Assembly: GCF_000377985.1 (NCBI RefSeq)
Contig: NZ_KB899047.1
Span: 1 to 64,000 of the forward strand
Direction: 5' to 3'
DNA length: 64,000 nt
Source of the DNA: Sporolactobacillus vineae DSM 21990 = SL153
Lineage (GTDB): Bacteria; Bacillota; Bacilli; Bacillales; Sporolactobacillaceae
Positions 38,249 through 64,000 of the stretch are shown here, piece after piece. How positions within the stretch are numbered: position 1 is the stretch's first letter; each line of letters opens with the position of its first letter. A model generated the notes under the pieces. The model had not been told where the DNA came from. It saw only the letters and a list, made by a program, of their open reading frames with translations, and made no database searches. A program made the position numbers and the translations under genes.

Positions 38249-38277
38249 TTGACAGATTCAGAAAACTCTGTTTTAAT
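38249..38277 (+). promoter_or_regulatory. Promoter of aromatic leader 1
   Basis: TTGACA (38249-38254) and TTTAAT (38272-38277) are 17 bases apart. Transcription would begin near 38284, about 24 bases before the leader ATG. Confidence 0.75.
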
Positions 38278-38307: not shown

Positions 38308-38379
38308 ATGATCAGCCGTCAGGCGTTCAGAAGTCGCCAATCAAATACGTATTATTTCTACTTTCGGTTCTTTCGGTAG
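38308..38379 (+). CDS. Aromatic-rich leader peptide 1 (23 aa)
   Basis: The ORF starts at ATG 38308, 9 bases after CAAGGAG, and ends TAG 38377-38379. Codons 15-22 read Tyr-Tyr-Phe-Tyr-Phe-Arg-Phe-Phe: seven of eight are aromatic. The run ends with Arg and the stop, and GTGTCTG of the first attenuator stem starts inside the stop codon. Its form matches ribosome-stalling leader peptides (compare PheL/TyrL-type attenuation). The second leader at 61200 has the same ending plan. The controlled genes would be araT-ddh downstream. Confidence 0.75.
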   Translation: MISRQAFRSRQSNTYYFYFRFFR

Positions 38380-38571
38380 TGTCTGTATTCGCATGACGGG
38401 GTGCAGACACGAAATCAGCTGTTTGCATCCATGCAAAGGCCGGAAGCAGAACATTTTGTCTTGCGGAAAAGACCACATGGATGAACGATTCAATAGTCCG
38501 TGTGGCGCATCATTAATTTGAACCGATGATCCGATCACTCGCAGCTATTGAAGCCGCGGGTGATTTTTTTT
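38379..38571 (+). promoter_or_regulatory. Attenuator 1: competing hairpins and terminator
   Basis: Segment 1 GTGTCTG (38379-38385) can pair with segment 2 CAGACAC (38404-38410). Segment 2 (TGCAGAC) can instead pair with segment 3 GTTTGCA (38421-38427). Segment 3 (CATCCATG, 38426-38433) can pair with CATGGATG (38476-38483), which itself belongs to a CCACATGGA/TCCGTGTGG stem (38474-38505). The last hairpin, ATCACTCGC/GCGGGTGAT (38534-38564) plus eight T, is an intrinsic terminator. Pairing is inferred by eye. Confidence 0.65.
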
Positions 38572-38593
38572 ACACAGGTTTTGTTAAACTTGT

Positions 38594-38789: not shown

Positions 38790-39989
38790 ATGGGCAATCC
38801 ACTAGCAGCAAAAATGAAAAAGGAACTCGACCTCCTGAAACCCTCGGATATCCTGAAATTTGATCAGGAAGCTTCTGCCATCCCCGGGATTCTTAAACTG
38901 ACACTCGGCGAACCGGATTTCAACACACCGGAGCATATCAAGGAAGCCGGCCGGCGAAGCATTGCCGCCAACCGCAGTCACTATACGGCTTCGGCGGGCA
39001 CGCCGGAACTGCGCCGGGCGATCAGCCGCTTCATGGACAGCAAATATCATGTTCACTATGATCCTGAAAATGAAATTCTCGTTACCGCCGGTGCGACGGA
39101 GGCGATCTTTGCGACACTGACGTCGGTCATCAATCCCGGCGACAAAGTACTGATTCCGACACCGATCTTCCCGCTCTATATCCCCGTTGCGATGCTGAAT
39201 CGCGCCGAACCGGTCTTTATGGATACGTCGGATAACGGATTTGTGCTGTCCCCGGAGAAACTGGAGAAGGCACTCAAGGAGCAGGGTGACGCCGTCAAAG
39301 CGATCATTTTCAATTTCCCGACGAATCCAACCGGCGTGACCTACCGTCGCGAAGATTTGAAAAAGCTGGCGGATATTCTGAAAAAGCATGAGATCTTCGT
39401 CATTTGTGACGAGATCTACAGTGAACTGACTTATGGCGCGGCTCATGTATCGATGGCGGAATTTCTGCCGGATCAGACGATCATCCTTAACGGTGCATCA
39501 AAGTCGCATGCGATGACCGGCTGGCGGATCGGCTTTATCTGTGCGCGGCAGGAGATCGTCCGGAAACTCGGGACGATCCACCAGTTTATGATCACTTCAG
39601 CCACCACCATGGCCCAGGATGCGGCGCAGGAAGCGTTTGAAAAAGGCATGGACGACGGCGCAGTAATGCGGGTCGAATATGAGAAACGCCGTGATTTTGT
39701 TTACAAGAAAATGCAGGCATTAGGCTTTGATTGTCCGAAGCCCGAGGGCGCTTTCTATCTTTTCCCGAAGATCCCGGATGACTTGATCCAGGACAGCATG
39801 ACGTTCTGCCGGGATCTGGCGCGTAAAGCGAAAGTGGCAGTCATCCCCGGGGACTCATTCGGTCCCGGGAGCAAAAGCCATATCCGGATCAGCTATGCAG
39901 CGAGTATGGATGTGCTTGAAGAAGCGATGAATCGAATTGAGAAGTATGTTAATGAAATCAGAAATGCAAAAGGGAGCGTCATTAAATGA
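38790..39989 (+). CDS. araT: Class I aminotransferase, probable aromatic (AraT/PatA type)
   Basis: The 399-residue PLP enzyme has the fold-type I landmarks: YTASAGTPELRRAISRFM, NFPTNPTGVTY, CDEIYSELTYG (Asp207) and SKSHAMTGWRIGF with the Schiff-base Lys238. The sequence style is that of lactobacillal AraT/PatA enzymes, which interconvert Phe/Tyr and their 2-keto acids. The aromatic preference is inferred, but the upstream leader with Tyr/Phe codons supports it. GGAGAG precedes ATG. The last codons overlap the next gene (ATGA), so the product 2-keto acid may be passed to it. Confidence 0.85.
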   Translation: MGNPLAAKMKKELDLLKPSDILKFDQEASAIPGILKLTLGEPDFNTPEHIKEAGRRSIAANRSHYTASAGTPELRRAISRFMDSKYHVHYDPENEILVTAGATEAIFATLTSVINPGDKVLIPTPIFPLYIPVAMLNRAEPVFMDTSDNGFVLSPEKLEKALKEQGDAVKAIIFNFPTNPTGVTYRREDLKKLADILKKHEIFVICDEIYSELTYGAAHVSMAEFLPDQTIILNGASKSHAMTGWRIGFICARQEIVRKLGTIHQFMITSATTMAQDAAQEAFEKGMDDGAVMRVEYEKRRDFVYKKMQALGFDCPKPEGAFYLFPKIPDDLIQDSMTFCRDLARKAKVAVIPGDSFGPGSKSHIRISYAASMDVLEEAMNRIEKYVNEIRNAKGSVIK

Positions 39990-40996
39990 AAATCATTATG
40001 TTCACCGTTCGTGATGATGAAGAACCGGCCGTCAGGGAATGGGCACAGAAAACCGGTATTCAGGTCGACATCAATCGGGTGGAACTGACGGAAGAAACCG
40101 TCGGCATGACAAAGGGTTATGACGGCGTGGTCGTCCAGCAGCGGACACCGCTCAAGAGTGATGCCCTGTTTGCCGCTTTGAAAGCTAACGGGATCCGGCA
40201 GCTTGCTTCAAGGACGGCCGGTGTCGATATGTTCGATACGAAAAAAGCAGCTGAATACGGCCTGGCCGTCACGAATGTTCCTGCTTATTCACCCAACTCC
40301 GTAGCTGAACTGGCAGTGACTCAGACGATGCGGCTGATCCGCAATCTTGCTCAGTTCGAAGCACGGGAAGCGCAGCAGGACTTTCGCTGGTCCGGCCTGA
40401 TGGCGAGGGAGATCCGTTCGCTGACGGTCGGTGTGATCGGTGCCGGAAGGATCGGCGGTACGGTAGCCCGCCTGTTCCGGGGACTCGGCGCCAAAGTGAT
40501 CGCCAACGATATTGTGGAACGTGATGATCTGAAAGATGTGCTTACTTATGTATCCAAAGAGGAACTGCTGAAACAGGCGGATGTGGTGACGCTTCATGTG
40601 CCGCTGCTGGAGTCAACGGTCTGCCTGATCGGTGCACCGGAACTCGCGCTGATGAAACCTGATGCATTCATCATCAATGCGTCGCGTGGTCCTGTGCTGG
40701 ATGTTAACGCCCTGATTGATGCTCTGCAGAAGAAGAAACTTGCCGGTGCCGCACTGGATACGCTGCCTGGTGAAGAGAAGTTCTTTAATCTTGATCTGCG
40801 CGGGAAAGCACTGCCAAGTGAAGCGCTGAAAAAGTTGCGTGCCTTGCCGAATGTACTGATCACCCCGCACATCGGTTTTTACACCAATCTGGCAGTAAAA
40901 AACATGGTGGAGATCAGTCTGAATGATGCTGTTTCTATTCTGAAAACAGGCAAGAGCGAACATCAGGTAAACCGCACTCCGGCACGGGAGCAATAA
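39986..40996 (+). CDS. D-2-hydroxyacid dehydrogenase (D-LDH / D-aryl-lactate type)
   Basis: At 336 residues it has the NAD motif GAGRIGGTVARLFRGLG (152-168) and the catalytic Arg234 (NASRGP), Glu263 or 264 (GEEKFF) and His295 (TPHIGFYT). It reduces 2-keto acids to D-hydroxy acids. Translational coupling to an aromatic-type aminotransferase suggests phenylpyruvate or 4-hydroxyphenylpyruvate as substrates, giving D-phenyllactate; pyruvate cannot be excluded. A terminator follows. Confidence 0.87.
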   Translation: MKIIMFTVRDDEEPAVREWAQKTGIQVDINRVELTEETVGMTKGYDGVVVQQRTPLKSDALFAALKANGIRQLASRTAGVDMFDTKKAAEYGLAVTNVPAYSPNSVAELAVTQTMRLIRNLAQFEAREAQQDFRWSGLMAREIRSLTVGVIGAGRIGGTVARLFRGLGAKVIANDIVERDDLKDVLTYVSKEELLKQADVVTLHVPLLESTVCLIGAPELALMKPDAFIINASRGPVLDVNALIDALQKKKLAGAALDTLPGEEKFFNLDLRGKALPSEALKKLRALPNVLITPHIGFYTNLAVKNMVEISLNDAVSILKTGKSEHQVNRTPAREQ

Positions 40997-57998: not shown

Positions 57999-58058
57999 TG
58001 GCTGATAAATCGTGAATTCGGCTGATATGTGCTCAGATCGGCTGATAAATCCCGGCCA
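57999..58058. repeat. Three tandem 20-bp repeats
   Basis: (C/T)GGCTGATAAAT or CGGCTGATATGT recurs at 57999, 58019 and 58039, each 20 bases apart. It resembles the 21-bp CGGCTGGATTTT array at 41081. The remaining bases to 58290 hold no gene. Confidence 0.75.
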
Positions 58059-58237
58059 GTTCCGGAAAATCCGTCTGAGGCGGCACATTTTTCCTTCCGC
58101 AGGGTAAATTATTGCCTGTCTGCTCGCAATTCCAGCCTGATTTCTGTCATTACTTACTCTTTTTTACGTATTTCCTGTCTTAAATGTACTTGCCGGGAAC
58201 TTATCCGTCAAAGAATTATTCCTGTCGTCAGTGCAAA

Positions 58238-58278
58238 AAGAAAAAGCCTGAAGAAGTGACTCTTTAACAGGCTTCCTC
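58238..58278 (-). terminator. Terminator of the nitroreductase gene
   Basis: Read on the minus strand, GAAGCCTGTT pairs with TTCAGGCTT, followed by TTTCTTTTT. Confidence 0.7.
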
Positions 58279-58290
58279 ATACTGAAAAGA

Positions 58291-58977
58291 TCAGTTGATC
58301 CATTCGACAACATCCTGAATCGGCTGTCTCGTCTTCGCACGCGGTTCCCTGGCCCGATAACCGAAAGCGACCATACAGGCGATCCCGTAATCGTCACCTT
58401 TGATTACGCCTGCGTCCTTCAGCAGCTGTTCCACCTTTTCCTTGTCGAAGCCTTCCATCGGGCAGGAGTCGATGCCAATCTCTGCCGCAGCGGTCATCAT
58501 GTTGGCCACAGCCAGATAGTCCTGACGGCAGCCCCATTCGAAGAAAACACGGTCGTTGCCGGTCAGCCCGAAATCATTTTTTTCAAAATTTCCGATGGCA
58601 TCGGTCATCTTTGCGACCACATCCGCAGGCATCTTCTGGATGTCCTTCAGCATGTGCTGCACGTGAGCGGACCGAGCATCAAGACTGTTCGCCTTCCGTG
58701 ACAGAACCAGAACAAAATGACTCGCTGTGCGCAGCTTTTCGACAGCTCCCCAAGCCGGTCCTTCCAGTCTTTTTCTCAGATCTTTATTTTGTACGACGAC
58801 GAATTTCCATGGCTCGAGGCCGAACGAGCTCGGCGACAGATGGGCGGTTTCAAGAATAAAGTTGAAATCCTCATCGCTGATTTTTTTATCCGGATCGAAC
58901 TTCTTGCAAGCGTGCCTGAACTGAAACGCCCGGATAATCGCATTTTTCACCTGTTCCTTGTCAATTGTCTGTGCCAT
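58291..58977 (-). CDS. NAD(P)H-dependent nitroreductase family oxidoreductase
   Basis: At 228 residues it has RHACKKFDPDKKISDEDFNF (FMN phosphate Arg), AHLSPSSFGLEPWKFVVVQN, and the second FMN segment PMEGFDKEKVEQLL with GYRAREP near the end. It is close to the YfkO/NfsB-type enzymes that reduce quinones and nitro compounds. GAGGA precedes ATG. Confidence 0.88.
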   Translation of the reverse strand: MAQTIDKEQVKNAIIRAFQFRHACKKFDPDKKISDEDFNFILETAHLSPSSFGLEPWKFVVVQNKDLRKRLEGPAWGAVEKLRTASHFVLVLSRKANSLDARSAHVQHMLKDIQKMPADVVAKMTDAIGNFEKNDFGLTGNDRVFFEWGCRQDYLAVANMMTAAAEIGIDSCPMEGFDKEKVEQLLKDAGVIKGDDYGIACMVAFGYRAREPRAKTRQPIQDVVEWIN

Positions 58978-59098
58978 CCTTTTAAATCCTCCTCTAAAGT
59001 GCCGGTAAATGAATGAATTTCCGGCATGATGTCCACAGAGAATAGTATAGGTTCTCTATGTGAAAATATTAACTGAACCGCTCAAAGCAGCATGATCA

Positions 59099-59407
59099 TC
59101 ACAGAAAAATGAACGCCAGGGCGACAAAAACGGCCCAATAGGGGAACCAGAGGGTCAGACTGACGGCATACCAGATGGTCGCCTTCAGGCCCTTCGGGCG
59201 GCGTCCCGACAGGCCTTTCATGAGGAAGTAATAGATCGCTGCTGCCGCAGCAGCCAGCAGGAAAAACCATTGCGGCGCTGCATCCGGTGAAATGTGAAGC
59301 AAAGCGGCGGTCTGCGCCGGACGGAACAGCAGCATCGTTGCCGCGGCCAGCAGAAGACCGTAGCCGCAGCTGAGCAGATTCAATTTAAGCGGCCTAATCG
59401 GCTTCAT
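59099..59407 (-). CDS. Small membrane protein (102 aa), unknown
   Basis: The protein has three hydrophobic segments: LLSCGYGLLLAAATMLLF, WFFLLAAAAAAIYYFLM and IWYAVSLTLWFPYWAVFVAL, with a basic loop between. I recognise no family. The start (ATG 59407) has only a weak GGAG-like element. Codon use is like that of its neighbours. Confidence 0.5.
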   Translation of the reverse strand: MKPIRPLKLNLLSCGYGLLLAAATMLLFRPAQTAALLHISPDAAPQWFFLLAAAAAAIYYFLMKGLSGRRPKGLKATIWYAVSLTLWFPYWAVFVALAFIFL

Positions 59408-59496
59408 TTATGTCAGACTCCCGCAGAAATGTACTTTATGACGCAGCAGAGTTTTTCAGACAGCGGATACCCGAACGTCGTAAGATCCCCATTTCA

Positions 59497-60195
59497 TCAG
59501 TGGAGTAATTTGCTTTGCAACTGGCTTATTTCTTCGTCGGACAGGCCGATCCTATTCAGGTAATGATGAACGGAGCCATAGGTTTTGAAAAATTGGTCGA
59601 GCGTCTTTTCCATATAGATCATATCCGTGCGTCCAACGTATTCCGGAAGGCCGGGATGCTGCTTTCGCAATGCATCAATCAAGCGGCGCCGATAAGTATA
59701 GGAAATCTGATAATCCACAAGAATATCACTTTCCGATACGCCTGCTGTCAGCAGAAGAAGTGCGGACACGACGCCGGTCCGGTCTTTCCCGGCAGCACAG
59801 TGGATGACGACGGCGCCCGGCTGCCCGGCGATCGTCTGCATGACCCGGCGCATGATCGGAAAATCGGAAATGATCCGGGCATACAGCGGCGGAACGCCTT
59901 CAGCCGATCCCGGATCCTGATTACCGATCGCAAACGGGCAGTGGATATAGGTGAAGTCGGGCAATAGCGCGAATGCACTTGGTCTGACAGTAATCTCTCT
60001 TGCCGAGCGAAAGTCGATGGCGGCCGTCACGCCGAGATTTTTAAGTATCCTAATGTCCTGCCCGCTGAGGTTGAGCGGGACATCGCTGCGGATAATACGG
60101 CCGAACCGGGTGGCGCCGCTATTTGTCGGATAACCGCCCAGATCGCGTGTATTCAATGTACTTGAAAGTGGAATTCTGCGTAATGGCATCATCAA
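59497..60195 (-). CDS. Tyrosine-protein phosphatase (Tyr_phosphatase_3 family)
   Basis: At 232 residues it begins NTRDLGGYPTNSGATRFGRI, the substrate-recognition start of the family, and carries the active site HCAAGKDRTG (Cys133, Arg139) with general-acid candidates near DFRSAREI. It resembles LipA/PtpB-like dual phosphatases acting on phosphotyrosine or phosphoinositides. AAGGAG lies 7 bases before ATG. Confidence 0.88.
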   Translation of the reverse strand: MMMPLRRIPLSSTLNTRDLGGYPTNSGATRFGRIIRSDVPLNLSGQDIRILKNLGVTAAIDFRSAREITVRPSAFALLPDFTYIHCPFAIGNQDPGSAEGVPPLYARIISDFPIMRRVMQTIAGQPGAVVIHCAAGKDRTGVVSALLLLTAGVSESDILVDYQISYTYRRRLIDALRKQHPGLPEYVGRTDMIYMEKTLDQFFKTYGSVHHYLNRIGLSDEEISQLQSKLLH

Positions 60196-60321
60196 TTGTC
60201 TCCTTATCTATTATTATAAGCTGTTCTGCGCTGTTTCCGGAATAAAAAGCTGTCACCTCGTTGATTAATCATTCCATTCCGGTAAATCGTGGTACGATGG
60301 GATTAAAAACAGGAGAATCTC

Positions 60322-61056
60322 ATGACGCATCGGGGAATATTCATTTTATCGCTTGCTTTTAATTTTGCCTTTATCCTTGGGTCAGCATTTCTGCTTTTGT
60401 TCCGGGGCGGTCTGGTGCCTTTTGAAACCTGGCTTGGCCTTCATCCGCCGAATAAACTGCGTCACCCGCTGGTCAGTGTCAAATACGGCGCCAACACACT
60501 CGTGAATCAAAGACATTATGACGTCGTCTTCATCGGTGACAGCCATACCGACTTTTTTCAATGGTCCCAGTATTTTCGCCGCACGTCCTGTTCAAATCAG
60601 GGGATTTCCGGAGATACGACGGAGGGCGTCCTGAGACGACTGGATCAGGTTCGCAGCGATACGCCGGACAAAGTCTTCCTGATGGTCGGCGTCAATGATT
60701 TGCGTCATGGACGGACGGTCGGCCAGACCGAGCGGGGTTATCGGGAAATTGTCCGTCGTCTGATCCGGGAAAACCCGCAGACCGGAATTTATGTCCAGAC
60801 GATCTTCCCGGTGAACGACAAAAAATATCCGCTCTATTTTCCACAGAATCCGGTGGCGCTTAATCACGAGATCAATCAGATGAACCGCTGGATTGCCGGC
60901 TTGCCGAAGCAATATTCGCGGCTTATGCTGATCGACAACCGTCCGATTCTGGATGAGAAGGGACAGCTTCCTGCCCGGATGACTGTCGACGGACTGCATC
61001 TGAGCAGCAGGGGTTATGAAAAGTGGACGGCACATTTGACACGTTATGTTTATTAA
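60322..61056 (+). CDS. SGNH/GDSL hydrolase with N-terminal membrane anchor
   Basis: The 244-residue protein starts with a hydrophobic anchor (GIFILSLAFNFAFILGSAFL) and has the block I motif VFIGDSHTDFF (nucleophile Ser), block III GVNDLRHGRT, and block V DGLHLSSRGYEKW (Asp and His). It is an extracytoplasmic esterase or acetyl-hydrolase, possibly acting on cell-wall polymers. It ends 80 bases before the promoter of aromatic leader 2. Confidence 0.88.
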   Translation: MTHRGIFILSLAFNFAFILGSAFLLLFRGGLVPFETWLGLHPPNKLRHPLVSVKYGANTLVNQRHYDVVFIGDSHTDFFQWSQYFRRTSCSNQGISGDTTEGVLRRLDQVRSDTPDKVFLMVGVNDLRHGRTVGQTERGYREIVRRLIRENPQTGIYVQTIFPVNDKKYPLYFPQNPVALNHEINQMNRWIAGLPKQYSRLMLIDNRPILDEKGQLPARMTVDGLHLSSRGYEKWTAHLTRYVY

Positions 61057-61139
61057 ATTCAGAAAATACAATTTGATGATCAGCCTCGCCAGACAGGCAA
61101 AATGTTCGGACAATGAGCCGGCAGATCTTCTGAATCGTG

Positions 61140-61168
61140 TTGACAAAAATCTTCATGACTGATATGTT
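61140..61168 (+). promoter_or_regulatory. Promoter of aromatic leader 2
   Basis: TTGACA (61140-61145) and TATGTT (61163-61168) are 17 bases apart; a start near 61175 leaves about 25 bases before the leader ATG. Confidence 0.78.
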
Positions 61169-61199
61169 TATGTCACTATCATTCAAGGAGCCCTTAAAA

Positions 61200-61268
61200 A
61201 TGGCAACAGTGAATCAATATTTGGTCTCACAATTGAATCGATATTATTACTTTGGTTGGTTTAGGTAG
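61200..61268 (+). CDS. Aromatic-rich leader peptide 2 (22 aa)
   Basis: ATG 61200 follows AAGGAG by 9 bases; TAG is at 61266-61268. The end reads NRYYYFGWFR: six of the last eight residues are Tyr, Phe or Trp, so all three aromatic amino acids are sensed in principle. Like leader 1 it ends (F/W)-F-Arg-stop, with a GTGTTTGCA stem starting inside the stop codon. Upstream residues (MATVNQYLVSQL) differ from leader 1. It probably controls transketolase-aroE. Confidence 0.78.
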   Translation: MATVNQYLVSQLNRYYYFGWFR

Positions 61269-61413
61269 TGTTTGCAGCTACACACGGTGTGGATGCAAAC
61301 ACTTCCCCGTTTGCATCTATACCGGCCGGAGTTTTTAAGCACGAATAAATAAGAATACGAAGCCGCATAGATGTTGCAATGAAAATTGTCAATAAGCTGT
61401 GCGGCTCTTTTAT
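61268..61413 (+). promoter_or_regulatory. Attenuator 2: competing hairpins and terminator
   Basis: Segment 1 GTGTTTGCA (61268-61276) is complementary to segment 2 TGCAAACAC (61294-61302). Segment 2 (GATGCAAAC, 61292-61300) is equally complementary to segment 3 GTTTGCATC (61309-61317). Segment 3 (TTGCATCTAT) can pair with ATAGATGTTGCAA (61367-61379), which contains part of the left arm of the terminator GCCGCATAG/CTGTGCGGC (61362-61405) plus TCTTTTAT. This gives the alternating 1:2, 2:3, 3:4 and terminator states of classical attenuation. Confidence 0.72.
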
Positions 61414-61443
61414 ATCCTCAGACCAGCGAGGAAAAACAGATTA

Positions 61444-61481
61444 AGAGTCCCGGGTTTATTGACTGCCCCGGGGCTCTTTTT
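61444..61481 (+). terminator. Second intrinsic terminator before transketolase
   Basis: AGAGTCCCGGG and CCCGGGGCTCT form an 11-bp stem, followed by TTTTT. It lies between attenuator 2 and the tkt SD, so read-through of two terminators is needed unless tkt has another promoter. Confidence 0.8.
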
Positions 61482-61529
61482 CGACTATTGGGGGATCAGA
61501 GAATGCGAAAACAGGAGGGAGAAAAGATC

Positions 61530-63557
61530 ATGTTTGATGAGATTGATCAGTTATGTGTCAATGCCGTGCGTATGCTGAGCTGCGAAAGTATTGAACGGGC
61601 CGGTTCCGGTCATCCGGGGCTGCCTCTGGGTGCTGCGCCGATGGCTTATGTATTATGGCGGAACTATCTGAATCTGAATCCGGGTGATCCGGAATGGTTC
61701 AACCGTGATCGTTTTATCCTGTCGGCCGGCCATGGTTCGGCCATGCTGTACAGTTTGCTGCACCTGGCCGGATTTTCCCTGACCATTGAGGATTTAAAGC
61801 AATTCCGCAGGTTCCGCAGTAAAACCCCGGGCCATCCGGAACGGGGTGTCATCGGCGGGATCGACGCTGCCACAGGACCGCTTGGGCAGGGCCTCGGCAT
61901 GGCGGTCGGCATGGCGATGGCCGAAGCACATCTGGGTGCGATGTATAATCGGGGCGATCTGGCTGTCGCCGACCATCACACTTTCGTACTTTGCGGCGAC
62001 GGTGATTTGATGGAAGGAGTCTCTCATGAAGCGGCGAGCCTGGCAGGACATCTGAAACTGAATAAGCTGATTGTGCTTTACGACTCGAATGCCGTCTCAC
62101 TGGATGGACCGACTTCCTGCTCTTCTTCCGATGATGTCCGCCGCCGTTTCGAAAGTTATGGCTGGCACTATCTGTCCGTTGCCGAAGGTAATGATCTGAA
62201 TCAGATTGATGCCGCGATTGGCGAAGCAATGAAACAGACGGACAGGCCGACGATTATTGAAGTCAGGACGGTGATTGGTTTCGGTGCTCCGGATCAAGGG
62301 ACAAATAAAGTCCACGGCACACCGCTGGGTCCGGAGGGCATGGCTGAGCTCAGAGACCACCTGCACTGGGATGCTGCCGATTTCACCGTTCCAGGAGCTG
62401 TCTATGACCGCTTCCGGGATAAGGTTTCGGCACGCGGGGCCAAAGCTGAAGCATCATGGCACCGGCGCGTTGCCGAATGGGAGACAGACAATCCGGCACT
62501 GGCCCGGCAGCTCAAGCAGTCGCTGGCCTGCCGGCTGCCGGAGACCTGGAAGAACGAGCTGCCAAAGTATACGGAGGGTGCGCTGGAAGCGACGCGAAAT
62601 GCAAGCCATCAAGTGATCCAGTCGCTCTCCAGTAAAATACCGTTCCTCTGGGGCGGTTCTGCCGACTTGTCCAGTTCCGACAAGACAAGCATTGAAGGCA
62701 GCGGCAGGTTCAGCGCGGCCGACCGGATCGGACGCAATATCTCCTTTGGTGTCCGGGAATTTATCGAAGGAACGGCGCTGAACGGGATTATACTTCACGG
62801 GGGCAGCAAGGTCTTTGGCGGAACCTTCTTTGTCTTTTCAGACTATATGCGTGCTGCGATCCGGCTGGCCGCACTGCAGCACCTGCCGGTCATCTATGTG
62901 TTCACTCACGATTCCATCGCTGTCGGGGAGGACGGGCCGACGCATCAGCCGGTGGAACAGCTGATGAACCTTCGGACAATGCCCAATGTGTCGGTGATCC
63001 GTCCGGCAGACGCCAATGAAACCGCTGCTGCCTGGGAAGCGGCGCTGCAATCCCGGACACAGCCGACGGTGCTCGTCCTTTCCCGGCAGAAACTCCCGGT
63101 GCTTCAGGATACAGCAGATCTGGCCGGGGAAGGAGTTCGTCGCGGCGGGTATGTGCTTTCACCCCAGAAAGGTGCCGTACCAGAAGGCATTTTGATTGCG
63201 ACCGGTTCCGAAGTGCATCTGGCTGTCGAAGCGCAGCGTGAATTGTTCCGGGAAGGGCATGATGTTTCCGTGGTCTCGATGCCAAGTTTCGACCGGTTCG
63301 ACCGACAGAGTCCCGCATACCGCGAAGCGGTGCTCCCTTCCCGGGTGCGCCGGAGAGTATCGGTGGAAATGGGTGCGACACTAGGCTGGGAACACTTTAC
63401 CGGATCCGACGGCATCTGTCTCGGCGTGAACCGGTTCGGCGCCAGCGGCCCGGCAGCAGACCTGCTCCCGGCCTATGGCTTTACAGTGGATCATGTGGTC
63501 GGTGCCTATCGCCAGTTAGTCCGGGAAGTTCCGGATGCAGCGTCTGTAGGGAACTAA
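61530..63557 (+). CDS. tkt: Transketolase
   Basis: The 675-residue ThDP enzyme has SGHPGLPLGAAPMAYVLW, GDGDLMEGVSHEAASLAGH (ThDP/Mg site), and the C-terminal DSIAVGEDGPTHQPVEQLMN with catalytic His. It transfers two-carbon units and makes erythrose-4-P, the sugar precursor of the shikimate pathway. ATG 61530 lies after CAGGAGGG; a longer in-frame reading from 61386 runs through the terminators and is not real. aroE follows 44 bases on, and an aromatic leader precedes, so this copy is probably dedicated to aromatic biosynthesis. Confidence 0.93.
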   Translation: MFDEIDQLCVNAVRMLSCESIERAGSGHPGLPLGAAPMAYVLWRNYLNLNPGDPEWFNRDRFILSAGHGSAMLYSLLHLAGFSLTIEDLKQFRRFRSKTPGHPERGVIGGIDAATGPLGQGLGMAVGMAMAEAHLGAMYNRGDLAVADHHTFVLCGDGDLMEGVSHEAASLAGHLKLNKLIVLYDSNAVSLDGPTSCSSSDDVRRRFESYGWHYLSVAEGNDLNQIDAAIGEAMKQTDRPTIIEVRTVIGFGAPDQGTNKVHGTPLGPEGMAELRDHLHWDAADFTVPGAVYDRFRDKVSARGAKAEASWHRRVAEWETDNPALARQLKQSLACRLPETWKNELPKYTEGALEATRNASHQVIQSLSSKIPFLWGGSADLSSSDKTSIEGSGRFSAADRIGRNISFGVREFIEGTALNGIILHGGSKVFGGTFFVFSDYMRAAIRLAALQHLPVIYVFTHDSIAVGEDGPTHQPVEQLMNLRTMPNVSVIRPADANETAAAWEAALQSRTQPTVLVLSRQKLPVLQDTADLAGEGVRRGGYVLSPQKGAVPEGILIATGSEVHLAVEAQRELFREGHDVSVVSMPSFDRFDRQSPAYREAVLPSRVRRRVSVEMGATLGWEHFTGSDGICLGVNRFGASGPAADLLPAYGFTVDHVVGAYRQLVREVPDAASVGN

Positions 63558-63601
63558 AGAAAGATTATTTTTACGCGCTGAGCGTGAAGGGGGTGAATCA
63601 A

Positions 63602-64000
63602 TTGAATGATTTTATTGATGGACGGACGCGTCTCTACGGTCTGTTCGCCCATCCTGCGGTGCACAGCCTGTCTCCGTTGATGCATAATCTCAGCTTTCGG
63701 CGCAGGCAGATCAATGCCGTTTATCTTGCTTTTGATATCACTTCAGATTTCAGTGATGCCATCCGAAGTATCCGTCAGCTGAATATGGGCGGCGTGAATT
63801 TATCGATGCCCTTTAAGAAACAGGTGATTCCTTATCTGAACGAACTGACCCCGACGGCGAAAATGGTTGGTGCCGTGAATACGGTGGTTCATCGCCAGGG
63901 ACATTTGATCGGCGCCAATACGGATGGAACCGGCTTCTTTGCAAACCTGCGGGCACGCCACTATACGCTCAGAGGTAAAACAGCAACGGTTCTCGGCGCG
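63602..64000 (+). CDS. aroE: Shikimate dehydrogenase, 5' part (cut by window end)
   Basis: From TTG 63602 (GAAGGGGGTG SD) the frame stays open for 133 codons to the window edge. It shows LYGLFAHPAVHSLSPLMHNL (shikimate-binding S-x-S-P-x-(M/L)-H-N with the first Ser in HSLSP), NLSMPFKKQVIPYLN (catalytic Lys), GAVNTVV and GANTDGTGF. It reduces 3-dehydroshikimate to shikimate. Being directly after tkt and the aromatic leader, it is the strongest evidence that the leader senses aromatic amino acids. The NADP-binding half (LRGKTATVLGA onward) is truncated. Confidence 0.93.
   Translation, partial: MNDFIDGRTRLYGLFAHPAVHSLSPLMHNLSFRRRQINAVYLAFDITSDFSDAIRSIRQLNMGGVNLSMPFKKQVIPYLNELTPTAKMVGAVNTVVHRQGHLIGANTDGTGFFANLRARHYTLRGKTATVLGA

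Follow-up and report, generated by a model that had tools for sequence, protein, structure and literature searches.

The right-hand end of a 64,000-nucleotide (nt) stretch of the Sporolactobacillus vineae DSM 21990 = SL153 genome (contig NZ_KB899047.1, positions 1 to 64,000; hereafter the window) holds the first genes of an aromatic biosynthesis operon and the leader region that precedes them. Family searches at this locus (L138) identify the operon as tkt-aroE-aroF-aroB, headed by a transketolase gene whose product is 88% identical to its S. shoreae homologue. Upstream of tkt, a promoter and a Shine–Dalgarno (SD) sequence precede a short open reading frame (ORF) bearing a series of aromatic codons near its end, followed by a chain of complementary segments, numbered 0 to 7, that leads through a first intrinsic terminator (T1) to a strong second one (T2; Table 1). 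The original prediction for this DNA had recognized the leader ORF with its SD and promoter, all of which are present, and mutually exclusive segments running into an intrinsic terminator, which prefix folding recovers and which covary in 14 homologues. It pictured three segments, one terminator, and an operon of transketolase and aroE; the segments, T1, and both genes stand, but the chain is longer, T2 must also be overcome, and the operon continues into aroF and aroB. Segment 0, T2 with its antiterminator, and a second copy of the element within the window are additions to that prediction.

Table 1. Features of the two leader loci and the genes behind them; helix coordinates 1:2 to 4:5 of the first copy are from unconstrained prefix folding
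Feature	Position	Strand	Remarks
Sigma-70-type promoter	61140..61168	+	TTGACA-17-TATGTT; 10/12 matches; extended -10 (TG before -10)
SD of first leader ORF	61185..61190	+	AAGGAG; sequence
Leader peptide ORF	61200..61268	+	MATVNQYLVSQLNRYYYFGWFR, then stop; 22 codons plus stop; ATG at 61200; conserved in homologues
Segment 0	61249..61266	+	Aromatic codons within leader ORF; pairs with 61315-61332 in unconstrained fold
Segment 1	61267..61283	+	Partner of segment 2
Segment 2	61285..61303	+	Partner of 1 or 3
Segment 3	61309..61332	+	Partner of 0, 2, or 4
Segment 4	61361..61379	+	T1 left arm or partner of 3
Segment 5	61388..61409	+	T1 right arm plus preceding loop; partner of 6, as antiterminator of T2
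Helix 1:2	61267-61276/61294-61303 and 61278-61283/61287-61292
Helix 2:3	61285-61300/61309-61324
Helix 3:4	61313-61326/61362-61374
Intrinsic terminator T1 (4:5)	61361..61413	+	Hairpin 61361-61370/61397-61406, then CTTTTAT (U-tract)
Intrinsic terminator T2	61443..61482	+	Hairpin 61443-61478 (61443-61454/61467-61478), then U-tract; left arm plus loop is segment 6, right arm segment 7
Helix 5:6	Segment 5 with 61443-61463		11 plus 7 base pairs, with T2 left arm and loop
Transketolase gene tkt	61530..63557	+	TIGR00232, 867 bits
aroE (shikimate dehydrogenase)	63584..64000	+	Extends past window end; then aroF (3-deoxy-D-arabino-heptulosonate-7-phosphate, DAHP, synthase) and aroB (3-dehydroquinate synthase) in genome
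Promoter-like site, second copy	38249..38277	+	TTGACA-17-TTTAAT; read by eye
Second leader ORF	38308..38379	+	MISRQAFRSRQSNTYYFYFRFFR, then stop; Tyr/Phe, no Trp; has SD
Second switch copy	38379..38505	+	1:2, 2:3, 3:4, and 4:5 hairpin without U-tract
T2 of second copy	38533..38573	+	Only hairpin there with U-tract
5:6 of second copy	38489-38497/38544-38552	+
Aminotransferase (pyridoxal phosphate-dependent, class I/II)	38790..39989	+	NF005588 583 bits, PF00155
D-2-hydroxyacid dehydrogenase	39986..40996	+	PF02826/PF00389; overlaps aminotransferase gene

Very probably, this element is a ribosome-mediated transcription attenuator that governs tkt-aroE-aroF-aroB in response to a scarcity of charged tRNA-Tyr, -Phe, and -Trp, while its Tyr/Phe copy controls an aminotransferase gene. 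From the sequence we infer translation, stalling, termination, read-through, and a co-transcriptional relay that would operate as follows. A ribosome stalled on the Tyr, Phe, or Trp codons would cover segment 0 wholly or partly and leave segment 1 free, so that 1:2 would form; segment 3 would then take 4 and preclude T1, segment 5 would take 6 and preclude T2, and both terminators would be passed. A ribosome that reaches the stop codon would cover segment 0 and the outer helix of segment 1, leading to 2:3, 4:5, and 6:7 and shutting the operon off by two terminators in series. Were the leader left untranslated, segment 0 would pair with 3, segment 4 would be free, and T1 would fold, again giving the off state. 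The parity of the domino would be 1:2, 3:4, and 5:6 in the on state, and 2:3, 4:5, and 6:7 in the off state. The hallmarks of such an attenuator lie in order along the locus: a short ORF with its SD 5′ of the switch, conserved sensor codons near the end of that ORF, mutually exclusive helices of the right parity that bear compensatory changes (L009 excepted), and terminators ahead of the first gene.

Unconstrained prefix folding, applied to 11 of the 14 sequences of the tkt group (5 + 6), reproduces these alternatives. Folded from the stop codon to segment 4, as in the stalled state, the window RNA forms 1:2 together with 3:4; begun 15 nt later, as with a ribosome at the stop codon, it forms 2:3 and leaves segment 4 largely free, and T1 appears once segment 5 is added. 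The predicted stall and stop states were obtained in 10 of the 11 sequences, in agreement with the leader-peptide attenuation and the parity of the original prediction. The stretch from segment 5 to the T2 loop, folded alone, gives 5:6 in both window copies. In the fold of the untranslated leader, segment 0 pairs with segment 3 around a nested 1:2 and segment 4 is free; therefore, an untranslated leader should shut the operon off. Counted from the first base in the P site, the ribosomal footprint reaches about 16 nt downstream. Most of segment 1 would therefore lie ahead of a ribosome halted at Trp, at the first Phe, or at any of the Tyr codons; one at the first Tyr would leave part of segment 0 uncovered, one at the last Phe would cover half of the outer helix of segment 1, and one at the stop codon would cover all of that outer helix. 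In each copy a small hairpin also separates segment 5 from segment 6 (61415-61432 and 38509-38530), and another lies between segments 3 and 4; these hairpins may draw distant partners together.

An aromatic leader stands 5′ of a tkt homologue in 13 sequences including the window, from Sporolactobacillus and relatives, Loigolactobacillus backii, and three Liquorilactobacillus. Upstream regions were read at 7 of the 80 tkt loci of a first listing, and tkt loci L093-L113 were left out. The leaders end in RYYYFGWF, RYYYFDWLSFS, PYYYYWFF, or RFYYYWF, and over the aligned ORF ends their lengths differ by 3 or 6 nt. Conservation was one of two tests that the original prediction had proposed for itself, and it passes this one: Sporolactobacillus, Loigolactobacillus, and Liquorilactobacillus all keep the aromatic codons and the alternative pairings, the latter with compensatory changes, ahead of tkt-(aroE)-aroF-aroB. 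The tkt locus of Bacillus litorisediminis (L008) has no such leader. A 14th member, counted in the tkt group (L115, genome G001; L153 was dropped as its duplicate), has a leader ending in SFYYYFGFFR that precedes 2-amino-3,7-dideoxy-D-threo-hept-6-ulosonate (ADH) synthase and 3-dehydroquinate synthase II, not tkt. This genome, of the same genus, has an archaeal-type shikimate entry (ADH synthase and 3-dehydroquinate synthase II; L140:1297-3266) behind an aromatic leader and is without a close homologue of the window transketolase. At another locus (L149, genome G005), an apparently intact leader with both terminators is followed by no more than fragments of the tkt frame (107 amino acids) and then by a DAHP-synthase-like frame of 331 amino acids.

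In the alignment of these 14 sequences (A3), standard pairs fill 83.4, 91.9, 90.3, and 94.9% of the cells of 1:2, 2:3, 3:4, and 4:5, respectively, compared with at most 54% in slid control helices, a comparison that favors the unslid helices in that the structures were taken from the window sequence. Pairs changed on both sides number 6, 9, 5, and 3, counts that 14, 2, 2, and 7 of 500 shuffles matched, and the percentage paired, the number of two-sided cells, and the covariation score were each equaled by 0 or 1 of the 500. The count of further pair types did not rise above the shuffles (404, 77, 493, and 112 of 500 as high). A wider pairing test took in 71 loci, reduced to 65 distinct ones. 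There, significance against dinucleotide shuffles (p ≤ 0.05) was reached by the predicted 0:3, 1:2, 2:3, and 3:4 in 60, 64, 42, and 50 loci, and by the non-predicted 0:2, 1:3, 2:4, 1:4, and 0:4 in 0, 5, 0, 2, and 0 (7/325 tests).

Whether T2 belongs to the switch separates the domino from a classical one-terminator attenuator, in which T2 would be a backstop or unrelated and 5:6 incidental. That simpler design is improbable. It gains from the ubiquity of a U-tailed T1 hairpin in three groups (16/16 Trp-type, 13/14 tkt-group, and 12/13 aminotransferase-group loci) and from the Trp-type loci (L195-L211 range), most of which have T2 (13/16) without significant 5:6. However, T2 lies between the switch and tkt, no promoter-like site was found between T2 and tkt, and T2 must therefore be passed. 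T2 was found in 68 of the 71 loci; L197, L198, and L207, which are without it, were excluded from the 5:6 counts, and merging identical segment 5/6 pairs left 62 distinct loci. None of 744 shuffles of their T1–T2 regions reached T2-level terminator stability (the tail counts of this test were not used for T1, as the best hairpin can absorb part of the U-tract). Across these loci, 5:6 is significant (p ≤ 0.05, 200 dinucleotide shuffles) in all 14 of the tkt group, all 13 of the aminotransferase group, and 21 of the 22 with other Tyr/Phe leaders; L174 is the single exception among 49 distinct Tyr/Phe-type loci. When a segment 5 from another group was swapped in, no more than 10% of swaps equaled the energy of the cognate pair at 14 tkt, 10 aminotransferase, 19 other Tyr/Phe, and 8 Trp loci.

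Helix 5:6 covaries as well. In the other Tyr/Phe group, aligned in 18 distinct rows (A4; L174 was left out for want of an anchor), the 5:6 core is 89.4% paired compared with 75.0% in shuffles, with segment registers chosen to maximize complementarity at a shared anchor, which favors pairing; its 23 two-sided cells were matched by none of 500 shuffles, and the 5 pairs with two-sided change did not exceed them (271/500). A later set of 27 new loci from one family, four further loci of which were already in the earlier set, has T2 throughout, a YFSYFR- or YFSYWR-type leader in 26, and significant 5:6 in 26, the exception (L214) being cut by a contig end with its leader misassigned. No U-tailed hairpin was found at the T1 site in 20 of the 28 other Tyr/Phe loci (many are close to identical), nor in the second window copy, with L090 borderline; at those loci, T2 is therefore the terminator.

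The second window copy was also matched by our covariance model R1 (38351-38513, E 1.3e-8), which spans the last leader codons to T1, T2 lying outside it. Leaders of the aminotransferase group mostly end in YYYFGFFR, and 12 of the 13 start with ATG. The gene behind the second leader would be a Tyr/Phe aminotransferase, a specificity that fits the absent Trp codons. The two strands of the window together contain five ORFs, none longer than 45 codons, with at least six aromatic residues among the last 13, and only the second-copy leader has an SD at its most upstream start, the test having covered most upstream starts, with internal starts of the other three ORFs outside it. The first leader has its SD at ATG 61200; the automatic listing had placed its start at an upstream GTG. 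A simple terminator scan (loops of at most 8 nt) listed neither T1 nor T2 and gave one site elsewhere compared with 3.0 in shuffles. Directly 5′ of the first leader promoter lies a GDSL-like lipase/acylhydrolase gene (60322-61056).

Several observations weigh against the two-terminator attenuator. Helix 5:6 is significant in only 1 of 13 Trp-type loci, where passage of T2 is unexplained. An earlier cut, with the whole T2 hairpin as target, gave p ≤ 0.05 for 5:6 in 10 of the 14 loci of the tkt group (p = 0.052 for L091 and L115, 0.152 for L006, and 0.147 for L009). Helix 2:3 is significant in just 2 of 12 aminotransferase-group loci, and one member of that group, L160, keeps the aromatic codons without an ATG start. 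L009 is the sole sequence of the 11 whose stalled-state fold is 2:3, and in the stop state 3:4 partly persists in L007, L009, and L010 up to the synthesis of segment 5. The no-ribosome fold of the second window copy is without 0:3. Lastly, T1 and T2 outcompete 3:4 and 5:6 at equilibrium, so the on state must be kinetic. Whole-leader minimum free energy was dropped as a test, as its fold ends in the terminators.

A second alternative is a TnaC-like nascent-peptide arrest. Free aromatic amino acid would then hold the ribosome on the stop codon, where it would block segment 1 and keep the operon off until shortage releases it. The strikingly conserved C-terminal residues (SYFR-stop, WQxWRR-stop) are what such an arrest peptide would call for, and the parity would likewise yield feedback repression. 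Yet 0:3 pairing places a constraint of its own on the conserved codons, and the sensor residues vary among Trp, Tyr/Phe, Phe, Leu, and His, which suits codon reading over a specific arrest peptide, making this alternative very unlikely.

The attenuator extends well beyond the tkt loci. R1 was positive in 14 of 15 genomes of the genus, the window genome included, 10 of them with two copies. Among 398 genomes of the class, at least 31 were positive, from 9 of 145 genera (2 of the 31 from the genus), a lower bound given the few candidates scored per genome. Deeper scoring of one family of the class gave positives in 35 of 39 genomes and 15 of 17 genera, at 52 places, of which 27 new loci were read; an even draw of 41 genomes across the class gave 3 positives. 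The arrangement, which the original prediction expected to be unusual for Firmicutes, is thus found beyond the source organism. Outside the genus, each of the 28 loci returned has a leader ending in YFSYFR or a close variant (such as YYSYFR, YFSFFR, FYGYFR) before aroE-aroF or a TrpX-like substrate-binding protein (genes assigned by eye, with family searches outside the genus at L169, L170, L171, and L175). The TrpX relatives behind Tyr/Phe leaders score below the TrpX equivalog cut-off of 390 bits (L171, 302; L175, 320; L169, 352), whereas the one tested behind a Trp leader (L195) exceeds it with 454; by their leader codons, the former probably carry Tyr/Phe rather than Trp. R1 matches were partly selected for aromatic codons and are not independent evidence of codon conservation; matches to the Rfam family RF04312, considered below, are.

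Taken together, these loci likely represent a widespread, so far unnamed attenuator family, based on leader peptides and spanning Sporolactobacillus and lactic acid bacteria, with sensor codons matched to the genes (Tyr/Phe/Trp, Tyr/Phe, Trp, Phe, His, Leu), a domino of seven to eight segments leading to two serial terminators in the Tyr/Phe types, and loss of the U-tract that turns the first terminator into a pure relay in some lineages; the family would absorb two published RNAs, the trpB motif and sRNA_2410. Its presence in another class of the phylum has thinner evidence, from two genomes. The literature searched, with subscription journals outside its scope, gave no description of the aromatic leader. 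A "PCE box" associated with the DAHP synthase genes of streptococci and lactococci, not found in that sense in this literature, might overlap with it.

The first of the two RNAs to fall within the family is RF02863, "Enterococcus sRNA 2410". Its cut-off of 61 bits is reached by 5 of 20 loci scanned (L170, L188, L167, L173, L186), all upstream of aroE-aroF (L170 by family search, the rest by eye), and 12 more match below it; the two window copies (L147, L166) and L154 gave no match at E ≤ 1. Judging from name and length, the published sRNA_2410 of Enterococcus faecium would be the founder of RF02863. The available part of its report describes a 195-nt transcript, with two transcripts on a Northern blot (PMC5593968). 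A trans-acting small RNA, as which it was named, could account for such a transcript and Northern signal. The family model, however, begins in the last codons of the leader and covers the cis switch 5′ of aroE-aroF; short transcripts are the expected terminated products, and two terminators would explain two transcripts, as might other causes. A small RNA acting in trans is thus a highly improbable account of the element, which is read here as the terminated leader of a cis attenuator, though sRNA_2410 might additionally act in trans.

The second is RF04312, the trpB motif, which its report, so far as available, presents as a strong riboswitch candidate with more than 900 representatives and a two-hairpin structure supported by covariation, adding that a classic attenuator could not be ruled out (PMC11109978). 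Its two hairpins match 2:3 and 4:5 here, and trpX- and trpB-type genes lie downstream. The window element scores 37.3 bits, below the gathering score of 59, and weak matches occurred in control genomes too (5/14 and 4/14 in two scans). Matches in relatives at E ≤ 0.05 (25 in 16/38 genomes, none over the cut-off) were not counted, as controls match as well; five of them (L001, L114, L115, L117, L122) are this element. Forty-two matches within the E-value limits set were examined, 30 of them over the cut-off: 16 in 13/29 genomes, 20 in 20/39, 4 in 4/38, and 2 in 2/41. Directly 5′ of 38 of the 42 lies a leader whose last part includes two or more Trp codons (16/16 by reading, 20/20 and 1/4 by script, and L263 by eye, the last at a contig end with its Trp codons about nine codons before the stop), and a two-Trp ORF occurs at none of 843 control positions. 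In the Trp-type matches the model starts about 9-23 nt past the leader stop, with the leader ORF outside it. The other four matches have His, Phe, Leu, or mixed aromatic leaders: HHHLHR (L261) and FYFWRR (L264) before permease-like proteins (genes by eye), and FFNNHFR (L196) and LLLLAELL (L212) before sodium-dependent transporters, that of L212 a sodium symporter. The codon swaps of L212 and L261 suggest that the same architecture senses Leu and His. Near the Phe-type leader, the pan motif (RF01749) also scores above its cut-off (L196:465-556).

Judged by its sequence context, RF04312 is, in the genomes examined, one half of a leader-peptide attenuator, namely its RNA, with the modeled part starting just past the end of the ORF. 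A riboswitch sensing the amino acid directly, as the published class name, structure, and window score would have it, is hardly tenable with such leaders upstream, and was rejected on their account. A T-box was dropped in turn: The Rfam T-box model has no match at E ≤ 1 in window positions 58000-64000.

Among known systems, the his and pheA/pheST-type attenuators of enterobacteria are closest in logic, sharing a leader with runs of codons for the regulated amino acid, a chain of mutually exclusive segments, read-through upon stalling, and shut-off when untranslated. Unlike them, the present element has two serial terminators, the right arm of the first serving as putative antiterminator of the second, a mixed Tyr/Phe/Trp leader over tkt-aroE-aroF-aroB, a segment 0 made of the sensing codons themselves, and a host range of Sporolactobacillus and lactic acid bacteria. 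Within Firmicutes, the His leader of hisZ/hisS* in bacilli is likewise an ordinary leader-peptide attenuator; it differs in its amino acid, histidine, and in its genes, and tandem terminators are unmentioned in the available text of that report (PMC2965389). The trpX T-box of Streptococcus suis, as far as the accessible part of its description goes, similarly attenuates a trpX-type transporter under amino acid shortage, but as a tRNA-binding RNA without a leader peptide (PMC9382623).

In these bacteria, where regulation is usually ascribed to T-boxes, TRAP, and repressors, the attenuator would place the common aromatic pathway under a control that is testable and can be read from codons; transketolase, and with it the supply of erythrose-4-phosphate, would be included. 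Two orphans may thereby be explained: a riboswitch candidate of which more than 900 representatives have been published, and a small RNA that has neither a ligand nor a trans target to its name. Leader codons would also predict the substrates of transporters: The permease behind a His leader and the sodium symporter behind a Leu leader each gain a candidate. Finally, the two-terminator domino may illustrate how an attenuator lengthens, and how a terminator decays into a relay.

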